A DNA stretch of 39,303 nucleotides. Source: Flavobacterium sp. GTDB taxonomy: Bacteria; Bacteroidota; Bacteroidia; Flavobacteriales; Flavobacteriaceae. Below the pieces are notes generated by a model that made no database searches, was not told the origin of the DNA, and worked only from the letters and a program-made list of their open reading frames with translations. Where the stretch lies: NCBI GenBank assembly GCA_020048955.1, contig JAIFLT010000195.1, positions 1 to 39,303 of the forward strand, given 5' to 3'. Positions within the stretch are counted from its first letter, which is position 1. Each line of letters opens with the position of its first letter. Below are positions 9,812 through 32,114 of this stretch, in pieces. A program made the translations under genes and the position numbers.

Positions 9812-9812
9812 T

Positions 9813-10841: not shown

Positions 10842-10843
10842 AT

Positions 10844-13788: not shown

Positions 13789-15741
13789 ATGAACAAAAAT
13801 TTCTTTCGTATCAGTGCAATTATTGCATTGGTTACAACTTGTGGCTATGCCCAAGAAAAAGATTCTATTAAAGTGAATCAACTTCAAGAAGTAGTAATTT
13901 CGGATACCAAGTTTGCACAAAGCAAAGAAAAATCTGGAAAAGTAATCACAAAAATTACTGCCGAAGAGCTTCAAAAAAAATCGGGACAATCACTCGCAAC
14001 TGTTTTAAGTTCGGTTGCAGGTGTTGAAATTAACGGAAATCAATCAGCCAACGGAAAGAACTTAGGTTATTACATCCGGGGTGGAAAAAATCAACAAGTT
14101 TTAGTTTTAATTGACGGAAATCCTGTAACAGACGCTTCAGGAATTAGTTTTGAATATGACTTGCGTTTGCTTCCTGTAGATCAAGTAGAAAGTATCGAAA
14201 TTATGAAAGGAGCCGCTAGCACACTTTATGGAACAGGCGCTGCTACTGCTGTTATCAATATTGTTCTAAAAAAATCGAGTAAAAAACCACTTCAAGCCAA
14301 TGCTTATGTAACTATTGGTTCCAATAATACTGCGGCTAATAGTAAATATAATGGTCAAGATTTTAATCAAGGTTTTTCTGTAAACGGAACAATAAAAAAA
14401 GTGAATTATTTAGCTTCCATCAACAGCTCTGAATCTGATGGAATGTCTCAAATTGCAGCTCCAGAAAATCAAACCTATGAAAATGACCGATTTTCAAGAG
14501 TTAATTACAGGTCCAAAATTGGTTTTAAAGCTTCAGAAAAATTGACGTTAGATTTTTTTGGAAATTATGATGTGCTAAAAAACGATTATGATTTTTCGTT
14601 TGATAATACAGGTTTCAACGATACTAATTTGAATAAAAGTAAAACAGAACAATTTCGTTTCGGATTTTCACCAAAGTACAAATACAATCGAGGTGAGTTT
14701 ATAGTTAATTCAAGTTTTACAAAGCTGCAACGTGATTACACAGAGTTTAATTCGTGGACAAGTGTTATTGAAAATTCACTTTACGAATCAAGAAGTGTTA
14801 ATTTAGATGCTTTCAATAAATATAAAGTATCCACCGATTTCTTTTTAGTAACCGGAGTAAATTATCAATTTTATGATATGTTGAGTCAAACTCCTTATGC
14901 TACTATTACAAAAGAGGCAACAAAATTCAACATGATTGATCCTTATTTAACAGGAGTTTATACTTCTAATTTTGGATTAAACATTAATGTTGGTACACGA
15001 TTAAACGTTCATAGTGAATATGGAAATCAAGTAGTTTATAACATCAATCCATCATTTAATTTTGGAAAAGAAATTCCGTTAAAATTATTAGTTTCTTATA
15101 GTACAGCTTATGTAACTCCAAGTTTGTATCAATTGTATTCTGAATATGGAAACGCAAAATTAACACCAGAAAAAAATGCAACCGTTGAAGCTGGATTTGA
15201 AGTTGGGTTGTTGGATAAAAAATTGATTTTTAACGCAGTTGCTTTTCACAGAGAACAAGATAATAGTTTCGGATTTTATTTTGACAATGTAACATTTGAT
15301 TCGTATTATATTAATATAGAAGGAATTAATAAAGCAAAAGGTATTGAAACTGAGTTGAGTTATGTTTTAAACAATAAGTTTAAACTAAACGCCAACTATA
15401 CCTTTACGCAAGTAGATAAAAATTTAGATCGATTAATTCCAAAACATAAAGCTAATGCTTCTTTAGATTATTTTGCTTCAAATAGATTATTTTTCAATAT
15501 AAATTATCAATTCTTAGATGGCAGAAAAGATGTTTATTTTGACGGAACTACATTTGGAACAGCATCTGTAAAATTAGGTTCTTATCAATTGGTTAATGCT
15601 CTTGTAAAGTATGAATTGGTAAAAAACAGATTGTCCATTTTTGGAGCAGCAACTAATATTTTAAATGAAGACTTTACAGAAAATATTGGATATGCAACTC
15701 GTGGAAGAAACTTTAGATTAGGATTGAATATTAATTTATAA
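13789..15741 (+). CDS. btuB: TonB-dependent outer membrane receptor for vitamin B12
   Basis: A 650-residue outer membrane receptor. After the signal peptide (MNKNFFRISAIIALVTTCGYAQ) comes the plug domain: QLQEVVISDTKFAQ, SLATVLSSVAGVEINGN, YYIRGGKNQQVLVLIDGNPV and VESIEIMKGAASTLYGTGAATAVINIVLKK. The rest is a 22-strand barrel ending in RNFRLGLNINL, with a terminal hydrophobic residue as expected. About 600 residues is the BtuB size, smaller than SusC-type receptors. The cobalamin substrate is strongly supported by the upstream riboswitch. With btuFCD encoded divergently 1.8 kb away, it forms a complete uptake route. A terminator follows. Confidence 0.92.
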   Translation: MNKNFFRISAIIALVTTCGYAQEKDSIKVNQLQEVVISDTKFAQSKEKSGKVITKITAEELQKKSGQSLATVLSSVAGVEINGNQSANGKNLGYYIRGGKNQQVLVLIDGNPVTDASGISFEYDLRLLPVDQVESIEIMKGAASTLYGTGAATAVINIVLKKSSKKPLQANAYVTIGSNNTAANSKYNGQDFNQGFSVNGTIKKVNYLASINSSESDGMSQIAAPENQTYENDRFSRVNYRSKIGFKASEKLTLDFFGNYDVLKNDYDFSFDNTGFNDTNLNKSKTEQFRFGFSPKYKYNRGEFIVNSSFTKLQRDYTEFNSWTSVIENSLYESRSVNLDAFNKYKVSTDFFLVTGVNYQFYDMLSQTPYATITKEATKFNMIDPYLTGVYTSNFGLNINVGTRLNVHSEYGNQVVYNINPSFNFGKEIPLKLLVSYSTAYVTPSLYQLYSEYGNAKLTPEKNATVEAGFEVGLLDKKLIFNAVAFHREQDNSFGFYFDNVTFDSYYINIEGINKAKGIETELSYVLNNKFKLNANYTFTQVDKNLDRLIPKHKANASLDYFASNRLFFNINYQFLDGRKDVYFDGTTFGTASVKLGSYQLVNALVKYELVKNRLSIFGAATNILNEDFTENIGYATRGRNFRLGLNINL

Positions 15742-18086: not shown

Positions 18087-18119
18087 AAAAATTCCGATTC
18101 ATTACGAATCGGAATTTTT
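18087..18119. terminator. Bidirectional terminator between the DUF4252 operon and crtZ
   Basis: A perfect 14-bp stem (AAAAATTCCGATTC-type arms at 18087-18100 and 18106-18119) with loop ATTAC. T-runs follow on both strands. It serves the plus-strand sigma factor operon and the minus-strand carotenoid operon; the crtZ stop is at its right edge. Confidence 0.9.
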
Positions 18120-18565
18120 TATTTTTGTTTGAAATATTTTAACGGAACAAACAACATTCCAAAACATTCACCATCACCTTTACCAATATGTTTGTGGTGC
18201 ATTTTGTGCGCTCTTCTTACACCTTTTGCATAGATATTGTTGGCATTTCTAAATAACTTAAAACGTTGGTGAATAAAAATATCATGTACAATAAAATACG
18301 CTAAACCATAGGCAAAAATTCCTAATCCAATAGAAATTCCTATTTCTAAAATTCCTTTTTGCCATAATAAAAAACAGCCAATACTTACCACTGCATAAAA
18401 AATAAAAAACGCATCATTTCTTTCAAACCAAGAATCGTGATCTTTTTTGTGATGGTCGGCATGAAGACTCCAAAGAAATCCGTGCATGATATACTTATGA
18501 GTAAACCAAGCCATAAATTCCATTATAACAAACGTTAAAACAAAGACCAATACATGTAGACACAT
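18119..18565 (-). CDS. crtZ: Beta-carotene hydroxylase CrtZ
   Basis: A 148-residue integral membrane di-iron hydroxylase of the fatty acid hydroxylase superfamily. The histidine clusters HKYIMHG, HADHHKK, HDIFIHQRF and HKMHHKH are all present and in the family order. Hydrophobic segments lie near residues 4-20 and 50-90. It adds hydroxyls to the rings of beta-carotene to give zeaxanthin. It starts 3 nt after the crtB stop and is last in carH-crtI-crtB-crtZ. A lycopene cyclase gene, needed between phytoene desaturase and this step, is not in the window. Confidence 0.93.
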   Translation of the reverse strand: MCLHVLVFVLTFVIMEFMAWFTHKYIMHGFLWSLHADHHKKDHDSWFERNDAFFIFYAVVSIGCFLLWQKGILEIGISIGLGIFAYGLAYFIVHDIFIHQRFKLFRNANNIYAKGVRRAHKMHHKHIGKGDGECFGMLFVPLKYFKQK

Positions 18566-18568
18566 AAT

Positions 18569-19408
18569 TTATATAATATTTAATTTATAAGAAAAATAAC
18601 ATTTGGCAAAAAGCCCATATTTTTGATAATCAGAAACTCTAATTCTAGTATTTTTTATTTCAGTTGATGGTGTTTTCTTTAATTTAGAAAGCAATTTTTT
18701 GTAATAAATGTAAGAGGTATAAACACCAAACTTAGCTTCTAGTGGTAAACCAACTATTCCTTGATAACCAGCTTCAAAATCGGCTTCTATTTCTCTAATG
18801 ATTTCATTTTTTGAAGCTTCATCTAATTTTGTTAAATCGGTATTTGGGAAATAAGTGCGACTTAAATCTTCAAAATCGGCTTTCAAATCTCTAAGAAAAT
18901 TCACTTTTTGAAATGCCGAGCCCAATCGCATGGCAGCATGTTTCAGCTCTTCATATTTTGCTTCGTTTCCGTTTACAAAAACTTTAAGGCACATCAATCC
19001 AACTACATCTGCCGAACCGTAAATATATTCGTTATATTCTTCTTTAGTTTTGTATTCTGATTTTACCAAATCAAGTTTCATACTTTTCATAAAAGCATCA
19101 ATCAATTCACTAGGAATTTGATATTTATGAACCGTGTGTTGAAACGAATTTAATATTGGATTTAAACTAATTTTGCTTTGTAGAGCGGCTTCCAAATCTT
19201 TTTCAAATAAATTGAACAACTCTTCTTTGTTGTAATCGTGAAAGGAATCAACAATTTCGTCAGCAAAACGCACAAATCCATAAATATTATAAACATCTTG
19301 TCGGATGCTAGGAGCCAACATTCTTACAGCAGAGGAGAACGAAGTGCTGTATGACTTGGTTACATTCTTGCTACATTCAAAAGATACGGTGTCAAAAAGT
19401 GATTTCAT
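18569..19408 (-). CDS. crtB: Phytoene synthase CrtB
   Basis: A 279-residue squalene/phytoene synthase that condenses two geranylgeranyl diphosphates to phytoene. The first aspartate-rich motif is GFVRFADEIVDSF and the second is FQKVNFLRDLKADFEDLSRTYFP. The substrate-binding YSTSFSSAVRML segment is at the N terminus. Length is normal. The start lies 11 nt downstream of the crtI stop and the product feeds CrtI, so the gene order fits one pathway and one transcript. Confidence 0.94.
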   Translation of the reverse strand: MKSLFDTVSFECSKNVTKSYSTSFSSAVRMLAPSIRQDVYNIYGFVRFADEIVDSFHDYNKEELFNLFEKDLEAALQSKISLNPILNSFQHTVHKYQIPSELIDAFMKSMKLDLVKSEYKTKEEYNEYIYGSADVVGLMCLKVFVNGNEAKYEELKHAAMRLGSAFQKVNFLRDLKADFEDLSRTYFPNTDLTKLDEASKNEIIREIEADFEAGYQGIVGLPLEAKFGVYTSYIYYKKLLSKLKKTPSTEIKNTRIRVSDYQKYGLFAKCYFSYKLNII

Positions 19409-19419: not shown

Positions 19420-20880
19420 TTAGCGGTGTTTTTTTATTAAATCGGCAACAAGCTTCCCTGAAATTAATGCAGGTGGAACTCCTGGTCCTGGAACTGTTAA
19501 TTGTCCTGTAAAATACAAACTTTTAACTTTTTTACTCTTCAATTTAGGTCTTAAAAAGGCTGTTTGCAATAACGTGTTTGCCATTCCGTAAGCATTACCT
19601 TTGTATGAATTGTATTCTTTTATAAAATCCTTTACGCAGAAAGATTCTCTAAAGATAATATTATTTTCTACATCTTGTTGCGTAATTTTTTCAAATCTAG
19701 AAATTATTTTTTTAAAATATTTTTCTCTTAGCTCCTCTGTATCCTCAATTCCTGGCGCAATTGGAATAAGGAAAAACCCGTTTTCACAATTTGTAGGTGC
19801 TAAATCAGTGTTAGTTACTGAGGTGAAATTAGCGTAAAATAAAGGTTCTTTGGGCCATTTAGGAGTGTCATATATTTCTGAAGCATGTACATCAAAATCT
19901 ACATCAAAAAACAGATTGTGATGTTCAACATTTTTTAACTTTTTATCGAAACCAACATAAAATAGTAGAGAAGAAGGCGCAAATATCTTTTTATCCCAAT
20001 ATTTTTCAGAATATTGTCTGTATTCTCTATCTAGCAGAGTTTCAGTATGATGATAATCTGCACCTGATAAAATAATATCGGCAGAAACCTCTTCACCATT
20101 TACTACTATTGCTGTAGCTTTTTTATCATTAACTATTATTTTATCTATGTTTGCATTGGTATAAATAGTTACACCTAGTTCTTTAGCCAGTTTTTCTATT
20201 CCTAGTATTACACTATACATGCCGCCAGTTGGTTGCCAAGTACCTAGTCCGAAATCAGCATAATTCATAAAACTGTAAAATGAGGGGGTATCCGATGGTT
20301 TTGCTCCTAAAAACAAAACAGGAAATTCAAGAATTTGTATAAGCTTTTTGTTCTTAAATTTTTTTCTTACATCTTTGCTTATATTAGAAAAAAACTGATT
20401 TACTCTGGTTGCAGTTTCTAAAGTAATAAGTTCTAAAGGTGATTCACCCGGACGATATACTAGGTCTTTTATAGCAATATTATAATTGCTTTGGGCTTCC
20501 TTCATAAACGATTCTAACTTTGCACCGCTACCACTTTCAATTTTTTCAAACGTTGCTGTAATTTCTTTCAGATTATCGGCAATCGTTACAAAGTCATTTA
20601 TTCCAAAAAAAACTTTGTAGGCAGGTGATAACTTTGTAAGAGTGTAATAATCTGAAGGTTTCTTGTCAAAATCATTAAAGAATTTTTCAAACACATCGGG
20701 CATCCAGTACCATGATGGTCCAATGTCAAAAGTAAAACCGTCTTTTTTTAATTGTCTGGCTCTTCCACCAATGGTGCTGTTTTTTTCGTAAATAGTTACT
20801 TTGTTACCCTCTTTTGCCAAATAGCAAGCAGCAGCCAAAGCTGAAAATCCTGAACCTATTATTTTTATATTTTTTCTCAT
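19420..20880 (-). CDS. crtI: Phytoene desaturase CrtI
   Basis: The track starts at 20913, but the ATG at 20880 (MRKNIKIIGSGF) matches the family start and keeps the upstream promoter box outside the gene. That gives 486 residues. The FAD-binding motif is IIGSGFSALAAACYLAKEGNKVTIYEKN, followed by GGRARQLKKDGFTFDIGPSWYWMPDVFE; the C-terminal flavin motif is LYFTGQLTVPGPGVPPALISGKL. The enzyme desaturates phytoene to lycopene in the membrane. It is 54 nt downstream of the carH-like gene. The TACTTTTG box at 20897-20890 ends only 9 nt before the ATG, implying a very short leader if used. Confidence 0.94.
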   Translation of the reverse strand: MRKNIKIIGSGFSALAAACYLAKEGNKVTIYEKNSTIGGRARQLKKDGFTFDIGPSWYWMPDVFEKFFNDFDKKPSDYYTLTKLSPAYKVFFGINDFVTIADNLKEITATFEKIESGSGAKLESFMKEAQSNYNIAIKDLVYRPGESPLELITLETATRVNQFFSNISKDVRKKFKNKKLIQILEFPVLFLGAKPSDTPSFYSFMNYADFGLGTWQPTGGMYSVILGIEKLAKELGVTIYTNANIDKIIVNDKKATAIVVNGEEVSADIILSGADYHHTETLLDREYRQYSEKYWDKKIFAPSSLLFYVGFDKKLKNVEHHNLFFDVDFDVHASEIYDTPKWPKEPLFYANFTSVTNTDLAPTNCENGFFLIPIAPGIEDTEELREKYFKKIISRFEKITQQDVENNIIFRESFCVKDFIKEYNSYKGNAYGMANTLLQTAFLRPKLKSKKVKSLYFTGQLTVPGPGVPPALISGKLVADLIKKHR

Positions 20881-20881
20881 A

Positions 20882-20897
20882 TTGTTTAACAAAAGTA
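20882..20897 (-). promoter_or_regulatory. Promoter and candidate CarH operator before crtI
   Basis: The plus strand reads TTGTTTAACAAAAGTA. It combines TTGTTTAACAA, a perfect 5+1+5 palindrome, with TACTTTTG (TAnnTTTG on the minus strand). The same 16-mer, differing only at the central base, precedes the carH-like gene. A second TTGTTTA lies about 21 nt upstream on the minus strand. Confidence 0.55.
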
Positions 20898-20934
20898 GCA
20901 AAAAGCTAAACAATAAAAAAGTTTTATGAAAATT

Positions 20935-21831
20935 TTATAAGTTTTCAATTAGTTCGTTTATTGTTTTAAAAGGTCTTATCTTATCATTTAAGATCTTTTG
21001 GTCAACGTATTCTGTCATTCTTCCAATGAGCCATAGCTCCGATGTATCGTCTAGAATTTGATCTTTTAGTTCTTTTATATAGTTATTTACATTAGCTTTT
21101 TCTGGCTCAACGGTCATGTAACAAATGTAAGTGATATTATCGAAATATTTTTTTAAATCTTTTAGACTTTCCATAGGAACGCTTTCACCCAGATAAATGG
21201 TTTTGTAACCGTTTAAAAGAATGTCATAATTCAAATACATCAATCCCAATTCATGAATTTCATTCATGGGCAAATAAAGTACGAATAATCTGTTGTTTTT
21301 GGTTGGTTGTTGGGTCTGGATTTTCTCAGTATTTGTTAGTAATTTCAATTTTATGAGATAACTAATAAAATGTTCGTGAGCAGGCGTAATCGTATCAGAT
21401 TGCCAAAGAAACCCAATTTCTTCCATCAATGGAATAAAGACTTCAAAGAAAACTTCTCTAAATGATTTTTCAGAAAGTAAAGCGTCATAAGTGTTAAAAA
21501 ATAGCGTTTGGTCAAAATTCATCATTGCCAATTTAAAAGAACTTATGGCATGACTTTTTGCACTTTTAGCAGAAACAATATCGCGAACTAATTCGGGAAT
21601 TTTTTCATGAGGCATTTTCGAAATTTTCGAAATTTTATAGCCATAATCATGCAACAATGTAATATTTAAAAGTTTTTGCAACGCATTCAAATCATAAAAA
21701 CGAATGTTGGTATCCGTGCGCATTGGTTCCAAAACATTGTATCGTTTTTCCCATATTCTAATGGTGTGTGCCTTGATTCCTGAAAGGTTTTCTAAGTCTT
21801 TTATGCTGAAAGTATTTTTAACACTGTTCAT
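20935..21831 (-). CDS. carH: MerR-family regulator with B12-binding domain, CarH-like photoreceptor
   Basis: The ATG at 21831 (MNSVKNTFSIKDL) gives 298 residues; the track start at 21855 overlaps the promoter box. Residues 5-75 are a MerR winged helix (FSIKDLENLSGIKAHTIRIWEKRY). Then follow a helical bundle and a cobalamin-binding Rossmann domain. The light-sensor signature W-x9-EH is present: W143, E153, H154 in LWQSDTITPAHEH. The axial-histidine motif E-x-H-x-x-G is also present: E191-I-H193-E-L-G196. These match the positions W131, E141, H142 and H177 known in Thermus CarH. With adenosylcobalamin in the dark, CarH proteins repress carotenoid genes; light breaks the tetramer and relieves repression. 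It lies directly before crtI-crtB-crtZ, as expected. Confidence 0.85.
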   Translation of the reverse strand: MNSVKNTFSIKDLENLSGIKAHTIRIWEKRYNVLEPMRTDTNIRFYDLNALQKLLNITLLHDYGYKISKISKMPHEKIPELVRDIVSAKSAKSHAISSFKLAMMNFDQTLFFNTYDALLSEKSFREVFFEVFIPLMEEIGFLWQSDTITPAHEHFISYLIKLKLLTNTEKIQTQQPTKNNRLFVLYLPMNEIHELGLMYLNYDILLNGYKTIYLGESVPMESLKDLKKYFDNITYICYMTVEPEKANVNNYIKELKDQILDDTSELWLIGRMTEYVDQKILNDKIRPFKTINELIENL

Positions 21832-21844: not shown

Positions 21845-21860
21845 TTGTTAAACAAAAGTA
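21845..21860 (-). promoter_or_regulatory. Promoter and candidate CarH operator before carH
   Basis: The plus strand reads TTGTTAAACAAAAGTA: palindrome TTGTTAAACAA overlapping the minus-strand -7 element TACTTTTG at 21860-21853. It is shared, apart from one central base, with the crtI upstream region. A second TTTGTTTA lies 22 nt further upstream. This suggests autoregulation. Confidence 0.55.
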
Positions 21861-22090
21861 CTAAAAAAAATAAACAAATGCTAAAATTTAGGAAATTTTT
21901 AGATTAGAGGAAATTGAACTGAAATAAATATTTATTATAAATAATACCTATTAGATTTATATATTAGTCAATTGTTAGAAAAAATAACTTGAATATTATC
22001 AGGCTATTTTATAAACCAAATTGGTGTAAGTTGATCAAAAAATACAAGTCGAATAATTAAATATTAAAAAAGATAATATAACTAAAATAG

Positions 22091-23593
22091 TTACTTCAAT
22101 CCCTCAATAATTGCTCTAAAACTAGCCAATCCAGCTTCAATGTTTTCTACAATATCCAATGCTAAAACATCAGGGTCGGGCAAATTATCTAAATCGGCTA
22201 ATGATTTATCTTTTAGCCATGTAATATCCAAACTGGTTTTATCCCTTGCCATAATTTCATCATACGTAAACTTTCTCCATCGTCCTTCTGGTCCTGAGCC
22301 TGTCGAAGGGTCGGCGTTGTAAGTTTCGGCTCTTTTGTTGATATTTTCAGCGTTGTATAAAGTAATAAAATCACGCAAGTCTTCCAACTTCAACGGATTC
22401 TTTTTCAACGTATGATGAATGTTAGTTCTATAATCATACACCCAAACTTCTTTTGTCCAAGGGTCTTTGCTTGAAGGTTTACCATCAAAGAATAGTACGT
22501 TTGCTTTTACACCATTAGCATAGAAAATACCTGTTGGTAAACGTAAAATGGTATGCAAATTGGTAGTATCTAATAACTTTTTACGTACCGTTTCTCCCAC
22601 ACCACCTTCAAACAAAACATTATCAGGCAATACGACTGCTGCTTGTCCTGTGGTTTTAAGCATGGTGCGAATGTGTTGCACAAAGTTCAATTGCTTATTA
22701 CTTGTGGTTACCCAAAAGTCTTGACGATTATAGGTCAAATCTTCTTTTTCTTGTTCGCCTGCTTCATTGGTAAAGGTCATGCTACTTTTTTTACCAAATG
22801 GCGGATTAGCTAAAATATAATCATAGGTTGTACTTGAAGTTGTAATTAGTGAATCATTAGGCGAAATAAAATTATCTGAATCAATATCGCCTATGTTGTG
22901 CAAAAACAAATTCATTAAAGCCAAACGTCTTGTACTAGCAACAATTTCGTTACCGAAAAATGTTTCATATTTCAAGAACTGTCTAGCTTCTTTATCTAAT
23001 TCTCTGTTGTCAACTATCCAATCATAAGCTGCTAAAAAGAAACCACCTGTTCCACAAGCTGGATCGGCTATAGTTTTGTTGGGTTCTGGGCGCAAACACT
23101 CTACCATCGCTTTGATTAATGGTCGAGGCGTGAAGTACTGACCAGCTCCGCTTTTAGTATCCTCGGCGTTTTTTTCTAAAATTCCTTCATAGATGTCGCC
23201 TTTATCTTTTACGCCCATCAATATCCAGTTCTCGGCATTGATAAGCGCGATGAGTTTGTACAACTTGGCTGGGTCTTGTATTTTGTTTTGACTCTTGACA
23301 AAGATTTGCCCCAAGATGCCTTTTTCTTTGGCTAACTCTCGCAACATAATGTTGTAATGCGTTTCTAACTCCGTACCACTTTTACTCGTTAGAGTCTCCC
23401 AAGCAAATTCGCTCGGTATAGGCATCGTTCTATTGTGTGGCGGTTTGGTATATTCGTCTGCCATTTTTAGGAATAACAAATACGTTAGTTGCTCCAAGTA
23501 GTCGCCATAACCCACGCCATCGTCTCTCAAGGTTTGGCAAAATGCCCATACTTTGGATACTATACTAGAGGTGTTTGTGTTTTCTTTACTCAT
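22091..23593 (-). CDS. hsdM: Type I restriction-modification methyltransferase subunit HsdM
   Basis: A 500-residue N6-adenine methyltransferase. The N-terminal helical domain (VWAFCQTLRDDGVGYGDYLEQLTYLLFLKMADE) is followed by the S-adenosylmethionine motif IADPACGTGGFFLAA and the catalytic NPPFG in DYILANPPFGKKSS. It pairs with HsdS to methylate the recognition site and with HsdR for cleavage. Its ATG overlaps the stop of the antitoxin gene as TAATG, so its translation is probably coupled to the antitoxin. Near the C terminus the segment DPSTGSGPEG is encoded by a G+C-rich repeat also found in hsdR. It is the last gene of the operon, an unusual position for hsdM. Confidence 0.95.
   Translation of the reverse strand: MSKENTNTSSIVSKVWAFCQTLRDDGVGYGDYLEQLTYLLFLKMADEYTKPPHNRTMPIPSEFAWETLTSKSGTELETHYNIMLRELAKEKGILGQIFVKSQNKIQDPAKLYKLIALINAENWILMGVKDKGDIYEGILEKNAEDTKSGAGQYFTPRPLIKAMVECLRPEPNKTIADPACGTGGFFLAAYDWIVDNRELDKEARQFLKYETFFGNEIVASTRRLALMNLFLHNIGDIDSDNFISPNDSLITTSSTTYDYILANPPFGKKSSMTFTNEAGEQEKEDLTYNRQDFWVTTSNKQLNFVQHIRTMLKTTGQAAVVLPDNVLFEGGVGETVRKKLLDTTNLHTILRLPTGIFYANGVKANVLFFDGKPSSKDPWTKEVWVYDYRTNIHHTLKKNPLKLEDLRDFITLYNAENINKRAETYNADPSTGSGPEGRWRKFTYDEIMARDKTSLDITWLKDKSLADLDNLPDPDVLALDIVENIEAGLASFRAIIEGLK
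22284..22310. repeat. Short G+C-rich repeat inside hsdM
   Basis: CCTTC and GAAGG flank the core CTGAGCCTGTCGAAG (22294-22308). The core occurs again in hsdR at 29047-29061 with one change. Its base composition differs from the A+T-rich surroundings, and it is read in frame as STGSGPEG. Confidence 0.7.
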
Positions 23594-24597
23594 TATAGTT
23601 GTTTTAGTTCAAAGGCATATTCGTAACTAATTACATTCTTGGTCTGTTCATTTTCTTTCCAAGCTTTTTCTAAATGACTTATTTCAATAATATCATTTGT
23701 AGTTGTTGTTTTGAAAGTAGCAACTATTTTTTTTAGAACATCTAATTCCATTTCAGTAAAAAGACTACTGTTAAATGGTCGGTCAGCTCTTGCTATAAAT
23801 TGTTCTCCAAAACCACCATTAGAAAATTCAGAATAATTAATATCTATTTCGTCCCTATTGGCTAAATACTCAAATATGCTTTGAAAATTATGAGGAACTG
23901 GTCCCATATTGATGGCATTATAGCGCATACCACTTATAGAGAAACAAGTTTCTTTAAACATTAAGAAATCAGCATAAAACAATAGCTTATTCATTTTGGT
24001 TTTATACGGCTTTATATGCTCAGAAAAATAAACTACCATTTCAGTAAACTTTTCAAAATTAGGATTTCGATACCCCGAATAAATATCTGCCAAATGATTA
24101 CCTAACAAGTAGTCTTTTAAATTAAAAGAAAAACTATTTCGCTTTCTTTGTTCTTCTAGCTGTTGACCTTTATGTATATATTTTTCCTTTGTTTTATCAT
24201 CTAATGAACCACACAACGCAACCATTTCTACAAATTTAGTGGGATCAGCAATCATTTGTATCAATCGTGCATTGGAAACACTAGGCATTTCACCTGCTTC
24301 ATATTGTCGATAACTATTGGTGCCAAACGCTAATATAGCAGCCATTTTTGTAGCTGATACATTATATTGTTCGCGTATAGCTGTGATTTCATCTGGGAAC
24401 GGGATATTGAATTTATCTCTATATTGATTATAAATCTGATTCATATTTACCTCATCCAATGCTGTGGTGGTAAACTGTTCACCACTATCCTCGCATTTAT
24501 AAAAATGAAACACTACCTGAAATATTTCTTTTCTAAAATCCATGGTTCTTTTTTCTTTAACCAAGGTCATTTCTTTACCTGTAATGGGACTTTTCAT
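23593..24597 (-). CDS. Panacea-domain antitoxin with MqsA-like N terminus
   Basis: A 334-residue protein with three parts. Residues 1-50 (KSPITGKEMTLVKEKRTMDFR to FYKCEDSGEQFTT) correspond to the MqsA zinc-binding module, but the first CxxC has become SPIT and only one cysteine of the second pair remains, so zinc is probably not bound. Residues 65-120 form an MqsA-like helix-turn-helix (AAILAFGTNSYRQYEAGEMPSVSNARL). Residues 185-275 match the Panacea/SocA domain (KPYKTKMNKLLFYADFLMFKE, then MRYNAINMGPVPHNF), known in antitoxins against many toxin types. The upstream gene, 6 nt away, is an MqsR-like toxin. It probably neutralises the toxin and represses the promoter palindrome. Its stop overlaps the hsdM start. 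Confidence 0.82.
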   Translation of the reverse strand: MKSPITGKEMTLVKEKRTMDFRKEIFQVVFHFYKCEDSGEQFTTTALDEVNMNQIYNQYRDKFNIPFPDEITAIREQYNVSATKMAAILAFGTNSYRQYEAGEMPSVSNARLIQMIADPTKFVEMVALCGSLDDKTKEKYIHKGQQLEEQRKRNSFSFNLKDYLLGNHLADIYSGYRNPNFEKFTEMVVYFSEHIKPYKTKMNKLLFYADFLMFKETCFSISGMRYNAINMGPVPHNFQSIFEYLANRDEIDINYSEFSNGGFGEQFIARADRPFNSSLFTEMELDVLKKIVATFKTTTTNDIIEISHLEKAWKENEQTKNVISYEYAFELKQL

Positions 24598-24603
24598 AAT
24601 TTT

Positions 24604-24951
24604 CTATTTTAAAGGATAAAGCATTTTGTGTTCTGCCAAGTGAAAAGAAATGCAAATTACAGAACTACCCATAGCTCCTAGAGTTATTTTAATATAGACT
24701 TCTTTTTTCTTTATCGTTTTACCAAAAACCCACATAGCCGAACCTCCATATAGCTTTTCTTCAATTGGTCCTTCGCTGTAATCAATAGTTTGTAAGTTTT
24801 CTAAAATACTCTTTCTGTCATTTGGTCGTAGTTCTAAATCTACTAATGCTTGGGCGTTTTTGCCTCGTTCATCTCTAAAAAGCACTTCCCAAATGGTCAT
24901 TTTCTGTTTGAACTCTTTCAAAAAGTCACTTACTTCTTTTTCGGTACTCAT
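24604..24951 (-). CDS. MqsR-like mRNA interferase toxin
   Basis: A 115-residue protein. The C-terminal half, YSEGPIEEKLYGGSAMWVFGKTI and then EVYIKITLGAMGSSVICISFH, follows the MqsR pattern, in which a tyrosine and the lysine of the VYxKIT strand lie in the ribonuclease site. MqsR toxins fold like RelE and cut mRNA, typically at GCU. The fit is by pattern, not alignment, so the exact substrate is open. The toxin-first order with the antitoxin 6 nt downstream is the order of E. coli mqsRA. A promoter with a perfect palindrome precedes it, and an R-M operon surrounds it. Confidence 0.75.
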   Translation of the reverse strand: MSTEKEVSDFLKEFKQKMTIWEVLFRDERGKNAQALVDLELRPNDRKSILENLQTIDYSEGPIEEKLYGGSAMWVFGKTIKKKEVYIKITLGAMGSSVICISFHLAEHKMLYPLK

Positions 24952-24964
24952 ACGTTTGACGGTG

Positions 24965-25005
24965 CTAAAGTATATATTTATTTTTTAAAAACAACTTTAA
25001 AGTTG
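24965..25005 (-). promoter_or_regulatory. Toxin-antitoxin promoter with operator palindrome
   Basis: CAACTTTAAAGTTG at 24992-25005 is a perfect 14-bp palindrome. On the minus strand its end supplies the TTG, followed after 19 nt by TACTTTAG (one change from TAnnTTTG). A repressor bound there would cover the -33 element. The layout recalls the AACCT-N-AGGTT site bound by E. coli MqsA. Confidence 0.6.
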
Positions 25006-25099
25006 ATTATTTATAATTTTTATAACAATATAATTATTTAAAAGTTGAATTACTAATTTCTAAGAAACTTTCCACAAAGCGAAATTTTGAATATGTAAA

Positions 25100-25771
25100 C
25101 TATTTACTTTTACTAATAATATCATAGGGTCTAGTTATAAAATATTCCATATCAAAAGGGTTTTGAAATCCTCTTTTTTGATAATAGTTAAATAATTGGT
25201 ATTGTGCTTTTTCAAAATCTAATTCCATTTTTGAGTATTCCATTTTTATATTCCAATCACTCCTGTTTTGTTCCTTTTCACTTTTAATTGTAATATCATG
25301 TTGCATTGGAAATGCTTTTAACACCCATAATCCGCATGAAGAATAAAATCGCTCAATCAAATTATTGATTATTTTTTCACCCAAACCTATACCTCTGTAT
25401 TTTGCGATTACTTCTAATGTTTCTAGAAAAAAGACATCATAATTTTCAAGAGGTTCATATTCAAAATAGGTTTCAATTTTATCCCAAAAGTCTTTGTCCT
25501 CGTCCCATTCAAATAAGACTCCTGACATTTGGCAAATAGAATGTGTAGCATCCATAACATCACTTAGTGGAAACCCATAATCCATTGCCAAAGAAAAAAG
25601 GATTTGACTAATTTTCCCTTTTCCTACTTGCTCCTGTAAATGTCCTGTTTCGTCTGTAAGATATACTTCAAAGTCTATCTCATTAACAAACTCCGTAGGG
25701 TCTTCACCAACAGGACAATCTTTTAAAAAGGTTGTAAACGAATATTTTATGATAAAATCCAAATCTTCCAT
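25100..25771 (-). CDS. GNAT-like acetyltransferase domain protein in the R-M operon
   Basis: A 223-residue protein. Residues 1-105 are acidic and match nothing I know. Residues 105-215 resemble a GNAT fold: the acetyl-CoA loop appears as LETLEVIAKYRGIGLGEKIINNLI (R-G-x-G-x-G) and the terminal motif as YYQKRGFQNPF. It lies 23 nt after hsdS and upstream of the toxin promoter, so it is probably transcribed with the restriction genes. A GNAT toxin is possible, but no ribbon-helix-helix antitoxin is next to it. The function is unknown; a role in defence is inferred only from position. Confidence 0.65.
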   Translation of the reverse strand: MEDLDFIIKYSFTTFLKDCPVGEDPTEFVNEIDFEVYLTDETGHLQEQVGKGKISQILFSLAMDYGFPLSDVMDATHSICQMSGVLFEWDEDKDFWDKIETYFEYEPLENYDVFFLETLEVIAKYRGIGLGEKIINNLIERFYSSCGLWVLKAFPMQHDITIKSEKEQNRSDWNIKMEYSKMELDFEKAQYQLFNYYQKRGFQNPFDMEYFITRPYDIISKSK

Positions 25772-25794
25772 AATACTATCAAATTAATTCGCTA

Positions 25795-27102
25795 CTATGG
25801 TTCAACAAGCTCCCCACTAAACGCTTTTTTCAGTATACTCTGCCGCAATGCCTCGGCTTGTTGCAAGCTTTGCGCAATACTTTCCTCCATTTTATCCGCC
25901 ACACTTAAACGGCTTTCTATTTCTTGAACGATTTGGTGTTGTTCTTCAATAGGAGAAAGTGGAAAAACAAAACTTTTTATAGATGCAATTCCAATATTTG
26001 CTTGTGTAGTTTCAACAACATATTTTCTAATTTCATCAGTTACTTTTGGTGATAATGAATATAAATAAATGTATTTTGAAAGAACTATATCATGGTTAGG
26101 TTTTACTACTGCGCATGAATATGAAACAAGAAATTCTTTATCAAAATCCACTAAAATATTTTTTCCTATTGTGCCATAACGAGGAAAAATAATATCCCCT
26201 TTTTCAGGTTTTATTTTTCTTGATAAGTTTATATAATCTTCCTTAGAAATATATTTAGCATTATCAAATGAAATTTTTAAATCATTTGTAAAATCTTTTG
26301 TTGAAACATAAGGATACCCTTTTTCTAATTGTTTAGGCATCTTATGGTCTATATCTCCAATCTTTACACAAACTTTTTGAAAAGTTGTCCATTCCCAACC
26401 CTTTGGCAACTCACCCTCTTTAATTCCCCTTTTGGGGGTTAGGGGGCTTAACTTTCCTTCAAAAGCCCATTTCAATACACTTTGTCTATAAGTTTTGAGT
26501 TGCTGTTGTGCGGTTTTTAAATCTTCTATGCCTTTATCTAACTCGCTAAATAGTTCCTCTATTTTGGAGACTATAACTTGTTGGGTTTCTATAGGAGGTA
26601 TAGGAAAATCTAATGGAGCAATGTTTTTATTGTTTATTTGAGGAATATTTGAACCATCACATATTTTTCCCAAATCTAGATTAATAAACCAATAAAAGAG
26701 AAAGCTACTATTAACATTTTCATTAGGTAAAACTCCCATTAAATTTAAGTCGAAAGTTGAATCTTTTGATAGAACTCTTTTTTTGTTTGTTAAAATTGCT
26801 CCACCTCTTTTAGGAAAAATTATTGTTCCTTTAGGGTAAAGCTTTAGTTTTAACTTTACAACTTCCTCATTTGATAAATTATAATTGGAGTGAGTCATTT
26901 TAACTTCATTCCCTAAAGAGTTCATGTCGCTTACCTTGTAGAATTGGTAGTTTCCGGTGTTAGAAATATTTTCTATGCCTTTCGGAGTATTTCCACTTAC
27001 AATTTTACAAACTTCTCCAAGAGGTTTTATTTGCCAATCTTTTGGTAATTTATTTTGTGTATTCAAAATCAAAATGTTAATAAGTTTGGGCGGTTTAGTC
27101 AA
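25795..27102 (-). CDS. hsdS: Type I restriction-modification specificity subunit HsdS
   Basis: A 435-residue frame with two target-recognition domains. Each starts with a LPKxW motif: KLPKDWQIKPLGEVCKIVSGNTP and ELPKGWEWTTFQKVCVKIGDI. Each ends in a conserved helix: PPIETQQVIVSKIEELFSELDKG and SPIEEQHQIVQEIESRLSVADKM. No ATG exists before the first domain, so the start is a TTG: the track uses 27102, but the TTG at 27072 (giving MILNTQNKLPKDW) better matches the related leader copy upstream. Between the domains lies SPLTPKRGIKEG, encoded by a G-rich repeat. HsdS sets the DNA sequence recognised by HsdM and HsdR. Confidence 0.92.
   Translation of the reverse strand: MTKPPKLINILILNTQNKLPKDWQIKPLGEVCKIVSGNTPKGIENISNTGNYQFYKVSDMNSLGNEVKMTHSNYNLSNEEVVKLKLKLYPKGTIIFPKRGGAILTNKKRVLSKDSTFDLNLMGVLPNENVNSSFLFYWFINLDLGKICDGSNIPQINNKNIAPLDFPIPPIETQQVIVSKIEELFSELDKGIEDLKTAQQQLKTYRQSVLKWAFEGKLSPLTPKRGIKEGELPKGWEWTTFQKVCVKIGDIDHKMPKQLEKGYPYVSTKDFTNDLKISFDNAKYISKEDYINLSRKIKPEKGDIIFPRYGTIGKNILVDFDKEFLVSYSCAVVKPNHDIVLSKYIYLYSLSPKVTDEIRKYVVETTQANIGIASIKSFVFPLSPIEEQHQIVQEIESRLSVADKMEESIAQSLQQAEALRQSILKKAFSGELVEP
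26422..26450. repeat. C/G-tract repeat inside hsdS
   Basis: The plus strand reads AATTCCCCTTTTGGGGGTTAGG and continues GGGC, with CCCC-TTTT-GGGG as a small hairpin. It sits at the junction between the two HsdS target domains and is read in frame. Composition is sharply unlike its A+T-rich surroundings. Confidence 0.65.
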
Positions 27103-27250
27103 ATAACAGTCAAATAAAAAACTGTTGGGATAATTGGGGTTAAAACACCTTTTGTGTTGATATATAAGCTATTGCCAAGCAACGGTTTTAGTATTTAAAA
27201 TCATAATTGTTAATAACTTTGGTTTTCAGTCAAATAACCGTCAAATAAAA
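27063..27250. repeat. Imperfect direct repeat covering the hsdS leader
   Basis: About 55 bp at 27063-27118 (ending AGTCAAATAACAGTCAAATAAAA) recur at about 27196-27250 (AGTCAAATAACCGTCAAATAAAA) with a few changes and a 2-bp gap. Each copy contains two TATTTGAC 11-bp repeats on the minus strand. The upstream copy continues into an 11-codon frame (MILNTKTVAWQ) similar to the hsdS start, then a stop. Confidence 0.85.
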
Positions 27251-27251
27251 C

Positions 27252-28703
27252 TTATGCCCAATGGGGAATATATTTGGCGAACTTCTTTGACTTATTTTCT
27301 GGATCTTCTTCTTTAATAAAACCTCCTTCAAAGGTATCTTTAATAATTCGTGATACCATGGCCGCATTCTCTTGTGCAATATTAAAACGATCTCTTAGAC
27401 TTTGATTAGTCATTTTATCATTGGTAACATATTTCAAAACACAGTGCTGATAGCACGCACGTACTCTGTCTTTTTTATCCATATCCGAAAATTTTTGGTA
27501 GGCATATAAAACTACTTTGGTATGCTTTTCCTGAATTTGAACTTCTAACGGCGGCAACTGAAAGATTTCAATGTTTAAGATTACTTTGTCAATGCCACTG
27601 CCTTTTTCTTCACACATTCTAAACCGTCTCATGATGGATGCTAAATCTTCATTGCGAGATTGGTATTCATCTATAAATCGTTCGGGTGTGATTAAGGGTA
27701 GTCCGGGATTTGAAATTTCAATCCTATCGGAATATATTTCAATCAAAGGTCCGGTACCCGTTTCGGTTAAATCCTGATGTATTAACGCATTAGCCACAAG
27801 TTCTCTTATTGCAATTTCGGGATACATCAAAACGGTTTCTCTGAGAGCTTGCCCAATTACTTCATTACTGGGTAAAATATCATTGATGTATTTTATAAGC
27901 CCTTGAAAACCTATAGCGTAACCCAAAGCGCCAAATTGGTCTTTTATTGTAGTGATTTTATTTTTTCCTTGATATTGTACAACTCTAACTGCTTTGCGTT
28001 TCAGATTGTCAAATTCATTTAAGTTTTTGGCAAATAACAGCGCTCCCAAATTAGTTATTTGATAGTTCCCACTTTTGAATGAAATAAACTTTTCAGAAAT
28101 AAATTTATCAATTACAGTATCTCTATTAGTAGGATATGGCAATTCTAATAAATCGAAATAAGCTTGAGTATCAAGTAATTTAACTATTTCATCGGTTGTT
28201 TCAACTTCTAAGGAAACAATTCTTTCAAACTTTTGTCTGCTTGACTTTGTCCATATCTTTTTCTCTTTCGCAGGAAAATCTTTTAAGGTTCGAGTAATGC
28301 TTCCCACTCTAATATAATCAACATGATTAAAACTTACGGGTTGCCCAATAGTGGCTTCTATTTTGAAAATGGAAATTAATTTATCCTGATAGATAATTTC
28401 ATAAATAGATACTTCAACTCTGGGTGAAATACGCTGTAACAACCAATGTTCCAATTCATCATTTCCGACTTTTTTTAGAGTAGGTCTGAAAGATGTTCCT
28501 TCAACTTTCAAAGTTTTGTCAGAAATACCAAAAACTAAATAACCGAAAGGTTCATTTTGCAAACAGGCACCATTACTCAAAGCTGAAATGTATTTACCTA
28601 TTTCCTCTTCCGATTTAAAATTCATCTTAAATTCAACCCATTCACATTCCTTGGGAAGTTTTAATAACCTGTCTATTAGCTTATGTATTTCTATTTCTTT
28701 CAT
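27252..28703 (-). CDS. AlbA_2/Schlafen-type ATP-binding regulator
   Basis: A 483-residue protein. Residues 1-130 are an AlbA_2 (Schlafen-like) domain: ECEWVEFKMNFKSEEEIGKYISALSNGA and FGYLVFGISD. The middle (about 280-375) is a HATPase_c_4 domain: IRELVANALIHQDLTETGTGPLIEIYSDRIEISNPGLP and RRFRMCEEKGSGIDKV. The C terminus (about 415-475) looks like a winged helix. Such proteins are commonly called ATP-dependent transcriptional regulators and often sit in type I R-M loci. It lies 2 nt after hsdR and before the duplicated hsdS leader, whose TATTTGAC repeats are possible binding sites, though this is speculation. Confidence 0.85.
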   Translation of the reverse strand: MKEIEIHKLIDRLLKLPKECEWVEFKMNFKSEEEIGKYISALSNGACLQNEPFGYLVFGISDKTLKVEGTSFRPTLKKVGNDELEHWLLQRISPRVEVSIYEIIYQDKLISIFKIEATIGQPVSFNHVDYIRVGSITRTLKDFPAKEKKIWTKSSRQKFERIVSLEVETTDEIVKLLDTQAYFDLLELPYPTNRDTVIDKFISEKFISFKSGNYQITNLGALLFAKNLNEFDNLKRKAVRVVQYQGKNKITTIKDQFGALGYAIGFQGLIKYINDILPSNEVIGQALRETVLMYPEIAIRELVANALIHQDLTETGTGPLIEIYSDRIEISNPGLPLITPERFIDEYQSRNEDLASIMRRFRMCEEKGSGIDKVILNIEIFQLPPLEVQIQEKHTKVVLYAYQKFSDMDKKDRVRACYQHCVLKYVTNDKMTNQSLRDRFNIAQENAAMVSRIIKDTFEGGFIKEEDPENKSKKFAKYIPHWA

Positions 28704-28705
28704 TT

Positions 28706-31507
28706 TTAAGCCGCTAAAACCTCATTTAATTCATTAATAATTGCATCCGTTTCATCTCCAAACAATTGCCACATTTTACTCAAACCACCTTCGGCATTAA
28801 AAGGGCTAAGGTCAAAGTCGTCTTTGTCTATGCTAAAACTGTTGGCTACATAGTCTTTCATCATGCGTAGCCATTGCATTTGGGCTTCGGTAAAGGCATT
28901 GTGTTGCCCAGCATTTTTTTCAAAAATCCATTTTTTAAAATTCGCATCTACCGTTTTATCGTAAGAAGTTAAGTTGTTGTCAATGCCTGCCACTTTGCGT
29001 ATCAAACTCACCAAAGCAATCAATTCGTTTTTTACCGATCCTCGGGCTGAGCTTGTCGAAGTCTCTAGTTGCTCATAGGCTCTCCAAACGGTTAAAGGAG
29101 CTAATAGTGGTTTTTCGGTTTTTAGTTTTTCGCACAAGTCTTTAATCATTTTGTAAGTAAACGTGCGGTGTCTATAATCTTGGGCATAAAAAATCTGCAA
29201 AGCCGTAATTTCGTCTTTATGGCTTTCTATCCATGCAGTAAAATCAGCAATGGTTGCTGAGCTTGCCGCAGCATGGTCTTTTACCCAACCTATATTGGTA
29301 ATAGCGTCAATGTTGCTAGTATCAATAATTTGGTCTAACTTTTTGCGAATATCTACAATAAAATCACGTAAATCAGGGTTATGAAATACGGCAACTGCTT
29401 CTTCAATTAGTTTTTTCTTTTCGGCATCAATGGCTTTTTCAATCTCCATAGGAGCAAAACCACGCAGGTTTCCTTTTACACTGGTTTCAATTTGTTGATT
29501 AGTATCAGGGTCGTAAGCATTCAACAATTGTTTTACTACATGGTTAATGGTAAATCCATTGGCTTGTTCGGCAAAAGTTGCTTTGTCTTTATCCGTTAAT
29601 TGTCTATCTAAACGAATCAATCGGTTGGCTAAAGTAGTCAGCATATCTTCGCTAGTGTTACCCATAGCCACGCTTTGCAACACATCTTTTAACGAAACAC
29701 CTGGCGCTTTTTCCAAAGGTCGGCTGTCCGTTTTTTGCGATTGCTCCACACCAATAGCATCAATAATTACAAAATGGTCTTTACTGAATTTTGCTGTGGG
29801 TGTACCTTTGGCTTTCAATTCTTCTATTGAGCAAGTACGTGTTCCACGACCTTTCATTTGTTCGTAATAAGAACGGCTTTTTACATCACGCATAAACAAC
29901 AATACTTCCAGTGGTCGAATGTCGGTTCCTGTGGCAATCATATCTACCGTAACGGCAATTCGTGGGTAATAATCGTTTCTAAATTGTTGCAAGACACTTT
30001 TTGGGTCTTCCTCACTGCGGTAGGTTATCTTTTTGCAAAACTTGTTTTCTTCGCCAAATTCTTCACGAACAATTTCAATAATATCTTCGGCATGGCTGTC
30101 GGTTTTTGCAAATATCAAAAGCTTTGGTACTTCAAAATTACCATTAGCATCCATTCGGTCAGGAAACATGGCTGGCAAGTTGTCTTTGGTGGCTCTTATA
30201 ATAGTGCGTATTGTACTTGGGTTTACAATGTCTTTGTCCAATTGCTTACCGCTATATTCAACATCTTCGTCTAAATGTTCCCAAAAGCGTTTACGAGTCA
30301 AGCGTTCACGTCTATCAACAGGTTCGCCAAAACTTTTTAAAACACTACCGTTTTTGGTGATTTCGGTTTCAATGGTAAAGACATTATAAGGCACTAAAAC
30401 CCCATCAATAACCGCTTTTTCATAACCATAATCAGAAACCAAATTCTGATTGAAATATCCAAAAGTTCTATTGTCAGGAGTAGCAGTCAAGCCAATTTGA
30501 AACACATCAAAATAATCCAATACTTGTTTCCACAGATTGTATATACTTCTGTGGCATTCGTCAATCACCACAAAATCAAAAAACTCAATCGGCACTTTTT
30601 CGTTATAGCCCACAGGAATCGCTTCCTTAGGTTCAAAACGCGTTTCATTTGGGTTTTCTTCTTCGGCACTTTCATCCAATTCGGTTTCTTTCAAAATCGA
30701 ATACATCCGTTGAATAGTGCTAATATATACTTGTGAATCGTCAGGAATAAAGGAACTACTCAAACGTGTAACACCATACAATTCGGTAAACAAACGGTTG
30801 TCTTCTTGTGCGGTAAACGCTCTAAATTCGCCTTCGGCTTGTTCGCCTAAGTTTTTAGTATCTACCAAAAACAAAATGCGTTTGGCTTTTGCATATTTCA
30901 ACAAACGATAGACAAACGTAATAGCAGTAAAAGTCTTTCCCGAACCAGTAGCCATTTGGATTAACGCTTTTGGCTTTTGGTCTTTAAACGATTTTTCAAG
31001 ATTGTTAATTGCCGTAATTTGACAATCGCGCAAACCATCTTCAGGTAGCGTTGGAATATCATGCAAACGACCTCGTAAAGTTTTAGATTGTGATAACCAT
31101 TGCACAAAAGTTTCGGGTCTATGAAAAGTAAACACGTTTCGAGAACGCGGTTTTGGGTCTCTGTAATCGGTGAAACGAGTCACTTCACCTGTACTTTCAT
31201 AAACAAACGGTAAAGGGTCGTTGTTTAACAAACGCAATTTAGCATTGGCATATTGAGAAGATTGTTCTTCTACTGTAGTCAGCCGAACACCTTCTTCTTC
31301 GCGTTTGGCTTCGATAATACCCACTGCTTTTTTATCTACAAACAAAACGTAATCCGCTGGACCAATATCCGTTTGGTATTCACGTATGGCAATTCCCAAA
31401 CCAGCCGCAAGATTGAATTTCTTCTTATCTTGAATAATCCAGCCACAAGCAATAAGTTGCTTGTCGATATGATCTCTGGCTATTTGTTCAGGGTTTTGGT
31501 TGGTCAT
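28706..31507 (-). CDS. hsdR: Type I restriction endonuclease subunit HsdR
   Basis: A 933-residue EcoEI-like restriction subunit. The N-terminal nuclease motif is GPADYVLFVDKKAVGIIEAK (PD-(D/E)xK). The superfamily 2 translocase follows: Walker A ALIQMATGSGKTFTAITF, DECH box FVVIDECHRSIYNLWK, motif III GLTATPDN, and motifs V/VI near VTVDMIATGTDIRPLE and MKGRGTRT. The C-terminal EcoEI-type helical domain binds the methyltransferase. Short G+C-rich segments in its C-terminal third encode ETSTSSARGS and AAASSAT. It is the first gene of the operon; a TATTTTTG box stands 35 nt upstream. Confidence 0.95.
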   Translation of the reverse strand: MTNQNPEQIARDHIDKQLIACGWIIQDKKKFNLAAGLGIAIREYQTDIGPADYVLFVDKKAVGIIEAKREEEGVRLTTVEEQSSQYANAKLRLLNNDPLPFVYESTGEVTRFTDYRDPKPRSRNVFTFHRPETFVQWLSQSKTLRGRLHDIPTLPEDGLRDCQITAINNLEKSFKDQKPKALIQMATGSGKTFTAITFVYRLLKYAKAKRILFLVDTKNLGEQAEGEFRAFTAQEDNRLFTELYGVTRLSSSFIPDDSQVYISTIQRMYSILKETELDESAEEENPNETRFEPKEAIPVGYNEKVPIEFFDFVVIDECHRSIYNLWKQVLDYFDVFQIGLTATPDNRTFGYFNQNLVSDYGYEKAVIDGVLVPYNVFTIETEITKNGSVLKSFGEPVDRRERLTRKRFWEHLDEDVEYSGKQLDKDIVNPSTIRTIIRATKDNLPAMFPDRMDANGNFEVPKLLIFAKTDSHAEDIIEIVREEFGEENKFCKKITYRSEEDPKSVLQQFRNDYYPRIAVTVDMIATGTDIRPLEVLLFMRDVKSRSYYEQMKGRGTRTCSIEELKAKGTPTAKFSKDHFVIIDAIGVEQSQKTDSRPLEKAPGVSLKDVLQSVAMGNTSEDMLTTLANRLIRLDRQLTDKDKATFAEQANGFTINHVVKQLLNAYDPDTNQQIETSVKGNLRGFAPMEIEKAIDAEKKKLIEEAVAVFHNPDLRDFIVDIRKKLDQIIDTSNIDAITNIGWVKDHAAASSATIADFTAWIESHKDEITALQIFYAQDYRHRTFTYKMIKDLCEKLKTEKPLLAPLTVWRAYEQLETSTSSARGSVKNELIALVSLIRKVAGIDNNLTSYDKTVDANFKKWIFEKNAGQHNAFTEAQMQWLRMMKDYVANSFSIDKDDFDLSPFNAEGGLSKMWQLFGDETDAIINELNEVLAA
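29037..29065. repeat. Short G+C-rich repeat inside hsdR
   Basis: The core CTGAGCTTGTCGAAG (29047-29061) matches 14 of 15 bases of the hsdM copy. A degenerate third copy, CTGAGCTTGCCGCAG, lies at 29257-29271. All three are read in the same frame (Ser-Thr/Ala-Ser/Gly-Ser). Confidence 0.65.
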
Positions 31508-31813: not shown

Positions 31814-31895
31814 TGACTTCGATGGGATTCGAACCCACACGCCTTTCAGCACTACCACCTCAAAGTAGCAAGTCTACCAATTTCTCCACGAAGCC
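31814..31895 (-). tRNA. tRNA-Leu (GAG)
   Basis: On the minus strand an 82-nt class II tRNA: acceptor GGCTTCG pairs with CGAAGTC (one G-U), the anticodon loop is TTGAGGT within stem CTACT/GGTAG, a long variable arm follows, and the T-loop is GGTTCGAATCC. The CCA end is not encoded. It is third in the Lys-Lys-Leu operon. Confidence 0.93.
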
Positions 31896-31939
31896 TTAAA
31901 TAAAAAAAGCCATTCACTGTAGCGAACGACTTTATTTTG

Positions 31940-32012
31940 TGACCTGGCTGGGGCTCGAACCCAGGACCCCATCATTAAAAGTGATGTGCTCTACCAACTG
32001 AGCTACCAAGTC
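31940..32012 (-). tRNA. tRNA-Lys (TTT), copy 2
   Basis: A 73-nt tRNA on the minus strand. The acceptor GACTTGG pairs with CCAGGTC, the anticodon arm is CATCA-CTTTTAA-TGATG, the T-loop is GGTTCGAGCCC, and the discriminator base is A. It is identical to the copy 102 bp upstream. Confidence 0.95.
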
Positions 32013-32041
32013 ATTGCTTGAAGAAAATTTAAAAAAAAAAG

Positions 32042-32114
32042 TGACCTGGCTGGGGCTCGAACCCAGGACCCCATCATTAAAAGTGATGTGCTCTACCAAC
32101 TGAGCTACCAAGTC
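32042..32114 (-). tRNA. tRNA-Lys (TTT), copy 1
   Basis: Identical in all 73 nt to the following copy. It is the first gene of the tRNA operon, about 25 nt downstream of a perfectly spaced promoter. The 198-nt ORF in the track here is an artefact of the duplicated tRNA. Confidence 0.95.

Follow-up and report, generated by a model that had tools for sequence, protein, structure and literature searches.

A CarH-like MerR protein predicted to place carotenoid and photoprotection genes of Flavobacterium under B12-dependent light control

Background

A window of 39,303 nt from a Flavobacterium sp. (the whole of the stretch analysed; contig JAIFLT010000195.1 of assembly GCA_020048955.1) encodes a MerR-type protein beside a set of carotenoid genes, which raises the question of whether the protein senses light through adenosylcobalamin (AdoCbl) and, if so, which genes it controls. 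Flavobacteria are among the abundant heterotrophs of surface waters; their light responses are known, and no sensor is named for them in the literature that we found.

The regulator and its signature residues

The regulator is a protein of 298 aa encoded on the minus strand at 20935-21831, with its ATG at 21831, and comprises a MerR DNA-binding domain (residues 8-73), a four-helix B12 cap with W143-x9-E153-H154 and a Rossmann domain with E191-x-H193-x-x-G196 and G215xxxP219. An earlier note on this DNA had singled out the first two of these motifs, and its numbering is exact. The gene is the sole copy found in the source genome (2.93 Mb in 211 contigs, 88% complete), and the nearest relatives of the protein, at 84-90% identity, are from Flavobacterium and Flavobacteriaceae records; the protein of Flavobacterium aquatile LMG 4008 (L036) is 84% identical. 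In Pfam both MerR_1 and B12-binding_2 match above cut-off and PF02310 gives no match; in NCBIfam the best model is the CarH equivalog NF052513, but at 61.5 bits against a cut-off of 400, and this model matches all 35 aligned members. Searched by sequence, PDB gives Thermus CarH entries as the best matches. The recognition helix, R25-I-W27-E28-K29-R30-Y31, fits RxWERRY with Lys replacing one Arg (PF13411 is matched), and R25, W27, E28, R30 and Y31 are invariant in the 35-sequence alignment.

Residues G140, W143, E153, H154, E191, H193, G196, G215 and P219 are identical in 109 of 109 aligned relatives, made up of 80 genus loci and 29 family loci, with the window's own copy (L001) not counted. 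A further 33 homologues, most of them at 30-54% identity, were compared, and 32 retain the Trp, the EH pair and ExH with its ligand His; the clear exception is a homologue beside crtI (L260, at G039:C52) in which EH has become ES and G196 has become Ser. From its sequence L260 would be a natural candidate for lost AdoCbl photochemistry; a different homologue, L273, has Ala at the G196 position. Over residues 100-298 the 35-sequence alignment (27-90% identity) has 12 invariant columns, eight of which are published CarH signature positions, with a probability of 1e-11 under a random draw of columns that ignores the frequent conservation of structural glycines anyway.

The CarH-type signature that had been claimed for the protein stands for Wx9EH and ExHxxG in all 109 relatives, and does not extend to the SxT/V...GG part of the motif or to the bis-His residue. 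Wx9EH of the cap domain is thus present and invariant, as is the D/ExHx2G/P motif with the lower axial His, here E191-I-H193-E-L-G196. The SxT/V...GG remainder of the classic B12 motif is absent, with C237-Y-M239 and I269-G270 in its place, the position of C237 being Ser in 68 aligned relatives. Three of the four elements of the SignatureFinder set, which consists of GxxW, EH, GxxH and GxxxP (PMC11796333), are present (G140xxW143, EH and G215xxxP219), and the fourth reads N190xxH193, Asn190 replacing the Gly of GxxH in nearly all relatives. Trp143 is followed by Gln144; in Thermus CarH this position holds a His, which acts as a second ligand of Co once the protein has been exposed to light (PMC9304148, PMC11796333). 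Because of the altered SxT/V...GG, Asn190 and Gln144 we call the regulator CarH-like, from its sequence, rather than a strict member of CarH.

The loss of the distal B12 motif and of the bis-His residue would also suit a CarA-like or otherwise drifted MerR repressor of crt genes, from which B12 light sensing has gone and in which redox state, singlet oxygen or an antirepressor provides the input, with induction by photo-oxidative stress. Myxococcus xanthus CarA indeed keeps much of the B12 motif, yet functions without B12 (PMC9304148). Such a repressor seems to us unlikely here, as what marks CarA is a B12 motif kept with the Trp of Wx9EH lost, and Trp143 is invariant; in myxobacteria it is the intact Wx9EH that distinguishes CarH from CarA (PMC9304148).

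Comparison with known regulators

An AF2 model of the regulator (pLDDT 88.9) has as its best structural match Thermus CarH with AdoCbl and DNA (5c8e, E 1e-13), with a TM score (target) of about 0.8 to the CarH B12 domain, and the best 50 matches listed are all CarH or CtMerR, the latter ranking after CarH. Thermus thermophilus CarH (class I LitR; PDB 5c8d/5c8e/5c8f, 3whp) is therefore the closest known protein in both sequence and structure; the MerR domain, four-helix B12 cap and Rossmann domain are common to the two, as are W-x9-EH, ExHxxG, GxxxP and, by prediction for the regulator, the control of carotenoid genes. The differences are an identity of about 22%, Gln for the His after Trp, Asn for Gly in GxxH and a degenerate SxV...GG. 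CtMerR of Chloracidobacterium thermophilum (8jbs/8jbt), a divergent MerR-B12 photoreceptor for which AdoCbl binding and a passage from tetramer to monomer in green light have been demonstrated (PMC11796333), has a B12 domain structurally like that of the regulator, but with about 16% identity there. M. xanthus CarH and CarA share with the Flavobacterium system the repression of carotenoid genes, predicted for the latter, and a TnnACA core, and CarA has an operator with inverted repeats; CarA differs in having no Trp, in its B12-independence and in its other operator sequence and gene context (PMC9304148).

Within the order but outside the family, Chryseobacterium lacus (Flavobacteriales) has light-induced crt transcription, as predicted here, and the authors reportedly found no CarA/LitR in its genome (PMC7064467), which points to a different switch, so that light induction can also arise otherwise.

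The locus and its candidate operator

The regulator was said to lie directly upstream of crtI-crtB-crtZ, and so it does: the genes are on the same strand, and crtI starts no more than 60 nt from the merR stop codon. The phytoene desaturase gene crtI (19420-20880, minus strand; CrtID equivalog above cut-off) is followed by crtB of the phytoene synthase family (18569-19408, minus strand; SQS_PSY) and a crtZ-like carotenoid hydroxylase gene (18119-18565, minus strand; FA_hydroxylase family), and merR and crtI are adjacent in 106 of 109 relatives. At 22091-31507, also on the minus strand, a type I restriction-modification-like locus, with HsdM-, HsdS- and HsdR-like ORFs and others interspersed, separates merR from a row of three tRNA genes (31814-32114, minus strand), two of which have identical scores; in several related loci no more than about 1 kb separates merR from the tRNA genes, so that the restriction-modification-like locus looks like an insertion.

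The promoters of both merR and crtI carry a conserved candidate operator, TTGTTTA-N17/18-TTWAACA. The predicted operator-promoter of merR (21845-21877, minus strand) reads TTGTTTATTTTTTTTAGTACTTTTGTTTAACAA, an N18 variant with the -7 box TACTTTTG, and that of crtI (20882-20913, minus strand) reads TTGTTTAGCTTTTTGCTACTTTTGTTAAACAA and ends 1 nt before the crtI ATG. Of 78 genus loci, 67 have a merR promoter of the form TAnnTTTGTTWAA, as do 27 of the 29 other loci of the family. We take this form to be the Bacteroidota -7 box fused to TGTTTAA, and the gap between merR and crtI often carries TTGTTTAAC...TAnnTTTG-TTAAACAA directly at the crtI ATG. Over 1.12 Mb of genus sequence around merR the strict TTGTTTA-N17/18-TTAAACA gives 78 strand-hits, every one of them in a merR or crtI promoter.

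The start of crtI (window 20878-20892) follows the operator by 1 nt and the -7 box by 9 nt, a layout that recurs across the genus, and crtI mRNA from the predicted promoter should therefore be nearly leaderless. In many family members outside Flavobacterium (L003-L031) another box, AAATTTTAACG-like, recurs some 45-50 nt upstream of TAnnTTTGTTTAA; this box, which precedes the merR promoter, is possibly the site of another regulator.

The 11-mer TTGTTWAACAA fits, on both strands, the 11-bp repeat consensus nnnnTnnACAn of CarH operators (PMC9304148). The tandem 11-bp direct repeats that make up the Thermus CarH operator are absent; the TnnACA core and the overlap with the promoter are present, in the form of an inverted repeat, TTGTTTAA-N16-TTAAACAA, with a 16-bp spacer. 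Since the arms straddle and adjoin the -7 box, a protein bound there should prevent transcription, and we would anticipate repression as in CarH. On its own the 11-mer TTGTTWAACAA shows no enrichment in the source genome (16 matches against 19 for the reversed pattern) and was dropped as a definition of the site; specificity comes only with arms at a fixed spacing or with arms plus the -7 box.

The predicted regulon

A composite pattern of operator and -7 box was found in 170 of 300 Flavobacterium genomes, with 1 match for the reversed control, and in the source genome it marks exactly merR, crtI and folE. The 114 composite matches that were read, from 110 loci chosen non-randomly (a large number of near-identical sites were omitted and a few places taken twice), lie before crtI (60), folE (12), merR (6) and other genes (36), the last mostly encoding MsrA, an SRPBCC protein, a flavin-reductase domain protein or a TetR-like protein. 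The operons so headed include SRPBCC-(SDR)-photolyase, flavin reductase-cryptochrome-DPRP photolyase and TetR-AarF-cryptochrome-photolyase-TIGR03643-SDR-folE, where gene names in other species come from reading the sequence against scanned proteins of the source genome. Genes that appear msrA-like from the motif GGCFWCTEAV lie under the operator at L186, L193, L201, L205, L221, L226, L228, L236 and L237, and their occurrence in several Flavobacterium species would make photo-oxidative repair part of the regulon. A few sites (L150/L253, L238, L241 and L192/L301) precede lipoprotein-, fasciclin- and CIA30-like genes, which have no obvious link to light.

In the source genome the arms at exactly N17 occur at five places, all light-related, compared to an estimated expectation of about 0.2 from base composition. 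These are crtI, folE, an SRPBCC-SDR-photolyase operon (C155), a TIGR03643-flavin reductase-photolyase-DPRP-DASH cryptochrome operon (C188) and tspO (C69); sites with one mismatch are near chance overall in the source genome (14/13 against 11/10). At the two photolyase operons the arm spacing is kept and the sequence of the -7 box is lost, which argues that the arms are not merely a promoter element. The tspO/crtK-like gene (PF03073) has its exact operator (L304) at G000:C69:5360-5390, 2 nt before the ATG, and for the flavobacterium Dokdonia it has been proposed that TSPO takes part in the regulation of expression by light (PMC8243069).

A similar set of genes is known from Pseudomonas, where light induces PhrB, FolE and CryB under the control of LitR-family regulators; PplR/PmlR (class II LitR) are MerR-type regulators of phrB, folE and cryB, with SDR and other genes in the operons, a set much like the regulon predicted in Flavobacterium (PMC9758184). 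These class II proteins keep the 4-helix domain alone, are thought not to bind B12 and are driven by a LOV protein, and carotenoid genes are not named among their targets (PMC9758184). An operator common to photolyase and folE operons fits light better than any other signal, and a reading limited to the crt genes, as in the earlier note, is too narrow, the regulon predicted from these sites being larger. The presence of msrA among the predicted targets would also be expected of a repressor that answers to photo-oxidative stress with B12 sensing gone; the photolyase, FolE and cryptochrome targets, typical of light regulons, speak against it.

The motif might instead belong to a different regulator, such as a TetR-like protein or a sigma factor, with merR merely one of the genes that carry it. 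We think this improbable, a shade more so than the drifted repressor. The central box TAnnTTTG is a general -7 element of Bacteroidota, and a TetR-like gene heads some of the target operons; however, two photolyase operons of the source genome have the exact arm spacing without a kept -7 sequence, the promoters of merR and the adjacent crtI are the only sites in the 1.12 Mb around merR, and the 11-mer matches the CarH consensus on both strands.

A rhodopsin gene

Two tandem operator sites, each with one mismatch, precede a gene with a Bac_rhodopsin domain (PF01036) at G000:C13:1332-1406 and downstream (L310-L313), and the gene reads as a proton-pumping type. The nearer site has perfect 8-bp inverted arms, TTGTTTAT-N16-ATAAACAA, around the -7-like TAATTTTG, and its arms score 19.4 bits, a value that in a set of 906 upstream regions from genus loci no promoters other than those of crtI and merR attain. 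These degenerate copies suggest a light-regulated rhodopsin, as a lead rather than a result; we grade them as weaker sites because those with one mismatch are near chance and the analysis covered a single rhodopsin promoter. A literature search of titles and abstracts for a B12-MerR regulator of proteorhodopsin returned nothing relevant.

Supply of adenosylcobalamin

A CarH-type sensor depends on AdoCbl, and the genome has the means to obtain it. A cobalamin riboswitch (RF00174; 13383-13707, plus strand; 57.3 bits), the sole one found in the source genome, lies 5' of a gene for a BtuB-like TonB-dependent receptor (13789-15741, plus strand), whose best family is TonB-B12, below the equivalog cut-off, and a BtuD/BtuC/BtuF-like ABC transporter is encoded at 9014-11980 on the minus strand by genes for an ATPase (9014-9811), a permease (9813-10841; best family BtuC, below cut-off) and a binding protein (10844-11980). 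A PduO-type adenosyltransferase (PF01923) is encoded at G000:C181, no CobA-type adenosyltransferase was found in the source genome, and further proteins with a B12-binding domain are present. Of 8 related loci that were examined, 5 have the riboswitch at a distance of about 6-8 kb from merR.

Among 251 genomes of the family a homologue of the regulator is present in 205 and PduO in 234, and the two co-occur (Fisher p 8e-8, or 4e-6 at >= 90% completeness), partly through genome reduction, as small genomes tend to miss both. This co-occurrence, too, counts against a repressor that has lost B12 light sensing. It had been expected that genomes without the adenosyltransferase would have lost the signature, and this failed: the signature is kept in L136-L139, and a few genomes where PduO is not detectable (G008, G065) retain it, which leaves room for another role of the residues in those genomes.

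That an AdoCbl-binding protein might mainly report B12 status instead of light, with crt and repair genes derepressed at B12 scarcity, would suit the riboswitch and uptake genes near merR and the recurrence of the riboswitch, but is very improbable given that the targets are photolyases, cryptochromes, carotenoid genes, folE and tspO, that 0 of the 5 exact operator places in the source genome are at a B12 gene, and that derepression of this kind is a side effect common to any CarH, so that the readings overlap.

Proposed mechanism and implications

We consider that the MerR protein is probably, at about 0.8, a light sensor of CarH-like, AdoCbl-dependent type that acts as a repressor in the dark and runs a light-protection regulon. 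This is supported by the set of Trp, Glu-His and His ligand, the CarH fold match, B12 uptake with an adenosyltransferase, and the operator at photolyase and folE operons, and from these we infer AdoCbl binding, operator binding, repression and a response to light. B12 would be imported through the riboswitch-linked BtuB and the nearby BtuFCD and adenosylated by the PduO-type enzyme. In the dark AdoCbl would sit on His193 with its adenosyl group against Trp143, Glu153 and His154, and the holo-protein would form an oligomer on TTGTTTA-N17/18-TTWAACA across the -7 region, blocking transcription of merR itself, crtI-B-Z, folE, the two photolyase/cryptochrome operons and tspO. Light would break the Co-C bond, the oligomer would disassemble and the photoprotection regulon would be switched on. 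The kind of protein is known; its operator architecture, predicted regulon and residue changes set this one apart as a variant.

An AdoCbl photoreceptor with a photoprotection regulon is the most likely reading of these sequences for Flavobacterium and, by the spread of the protein, for most Flavobacteriaceae. More tentatively, with the odds slightly against it, the B12 photoreceptor may be the master light switch of the Flavobacteriaceae, acting through a family-specific inverted-repeat operator on carotenoids, photolyases, TspO and proteorhodopsin. Were this true, B12-importing, light-exposed bacteria would need imported B12 for dark repression of their light programme, and light sensing by rhodopsin-bearing flavobacteria would be explained.

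If a single B12 photoreceptor governed such a regulon across the genus, this would account for the induction by light of carotenoids, photolyases, folE and tspO, would lead one to expect the same of rhodopsin, and would link light physiology to the supply of B12. The variant residues offer a probe of which parts of the CarH signature photochemistry needs, and the shared operator motif makes flavobacterial light sensing directly testable.
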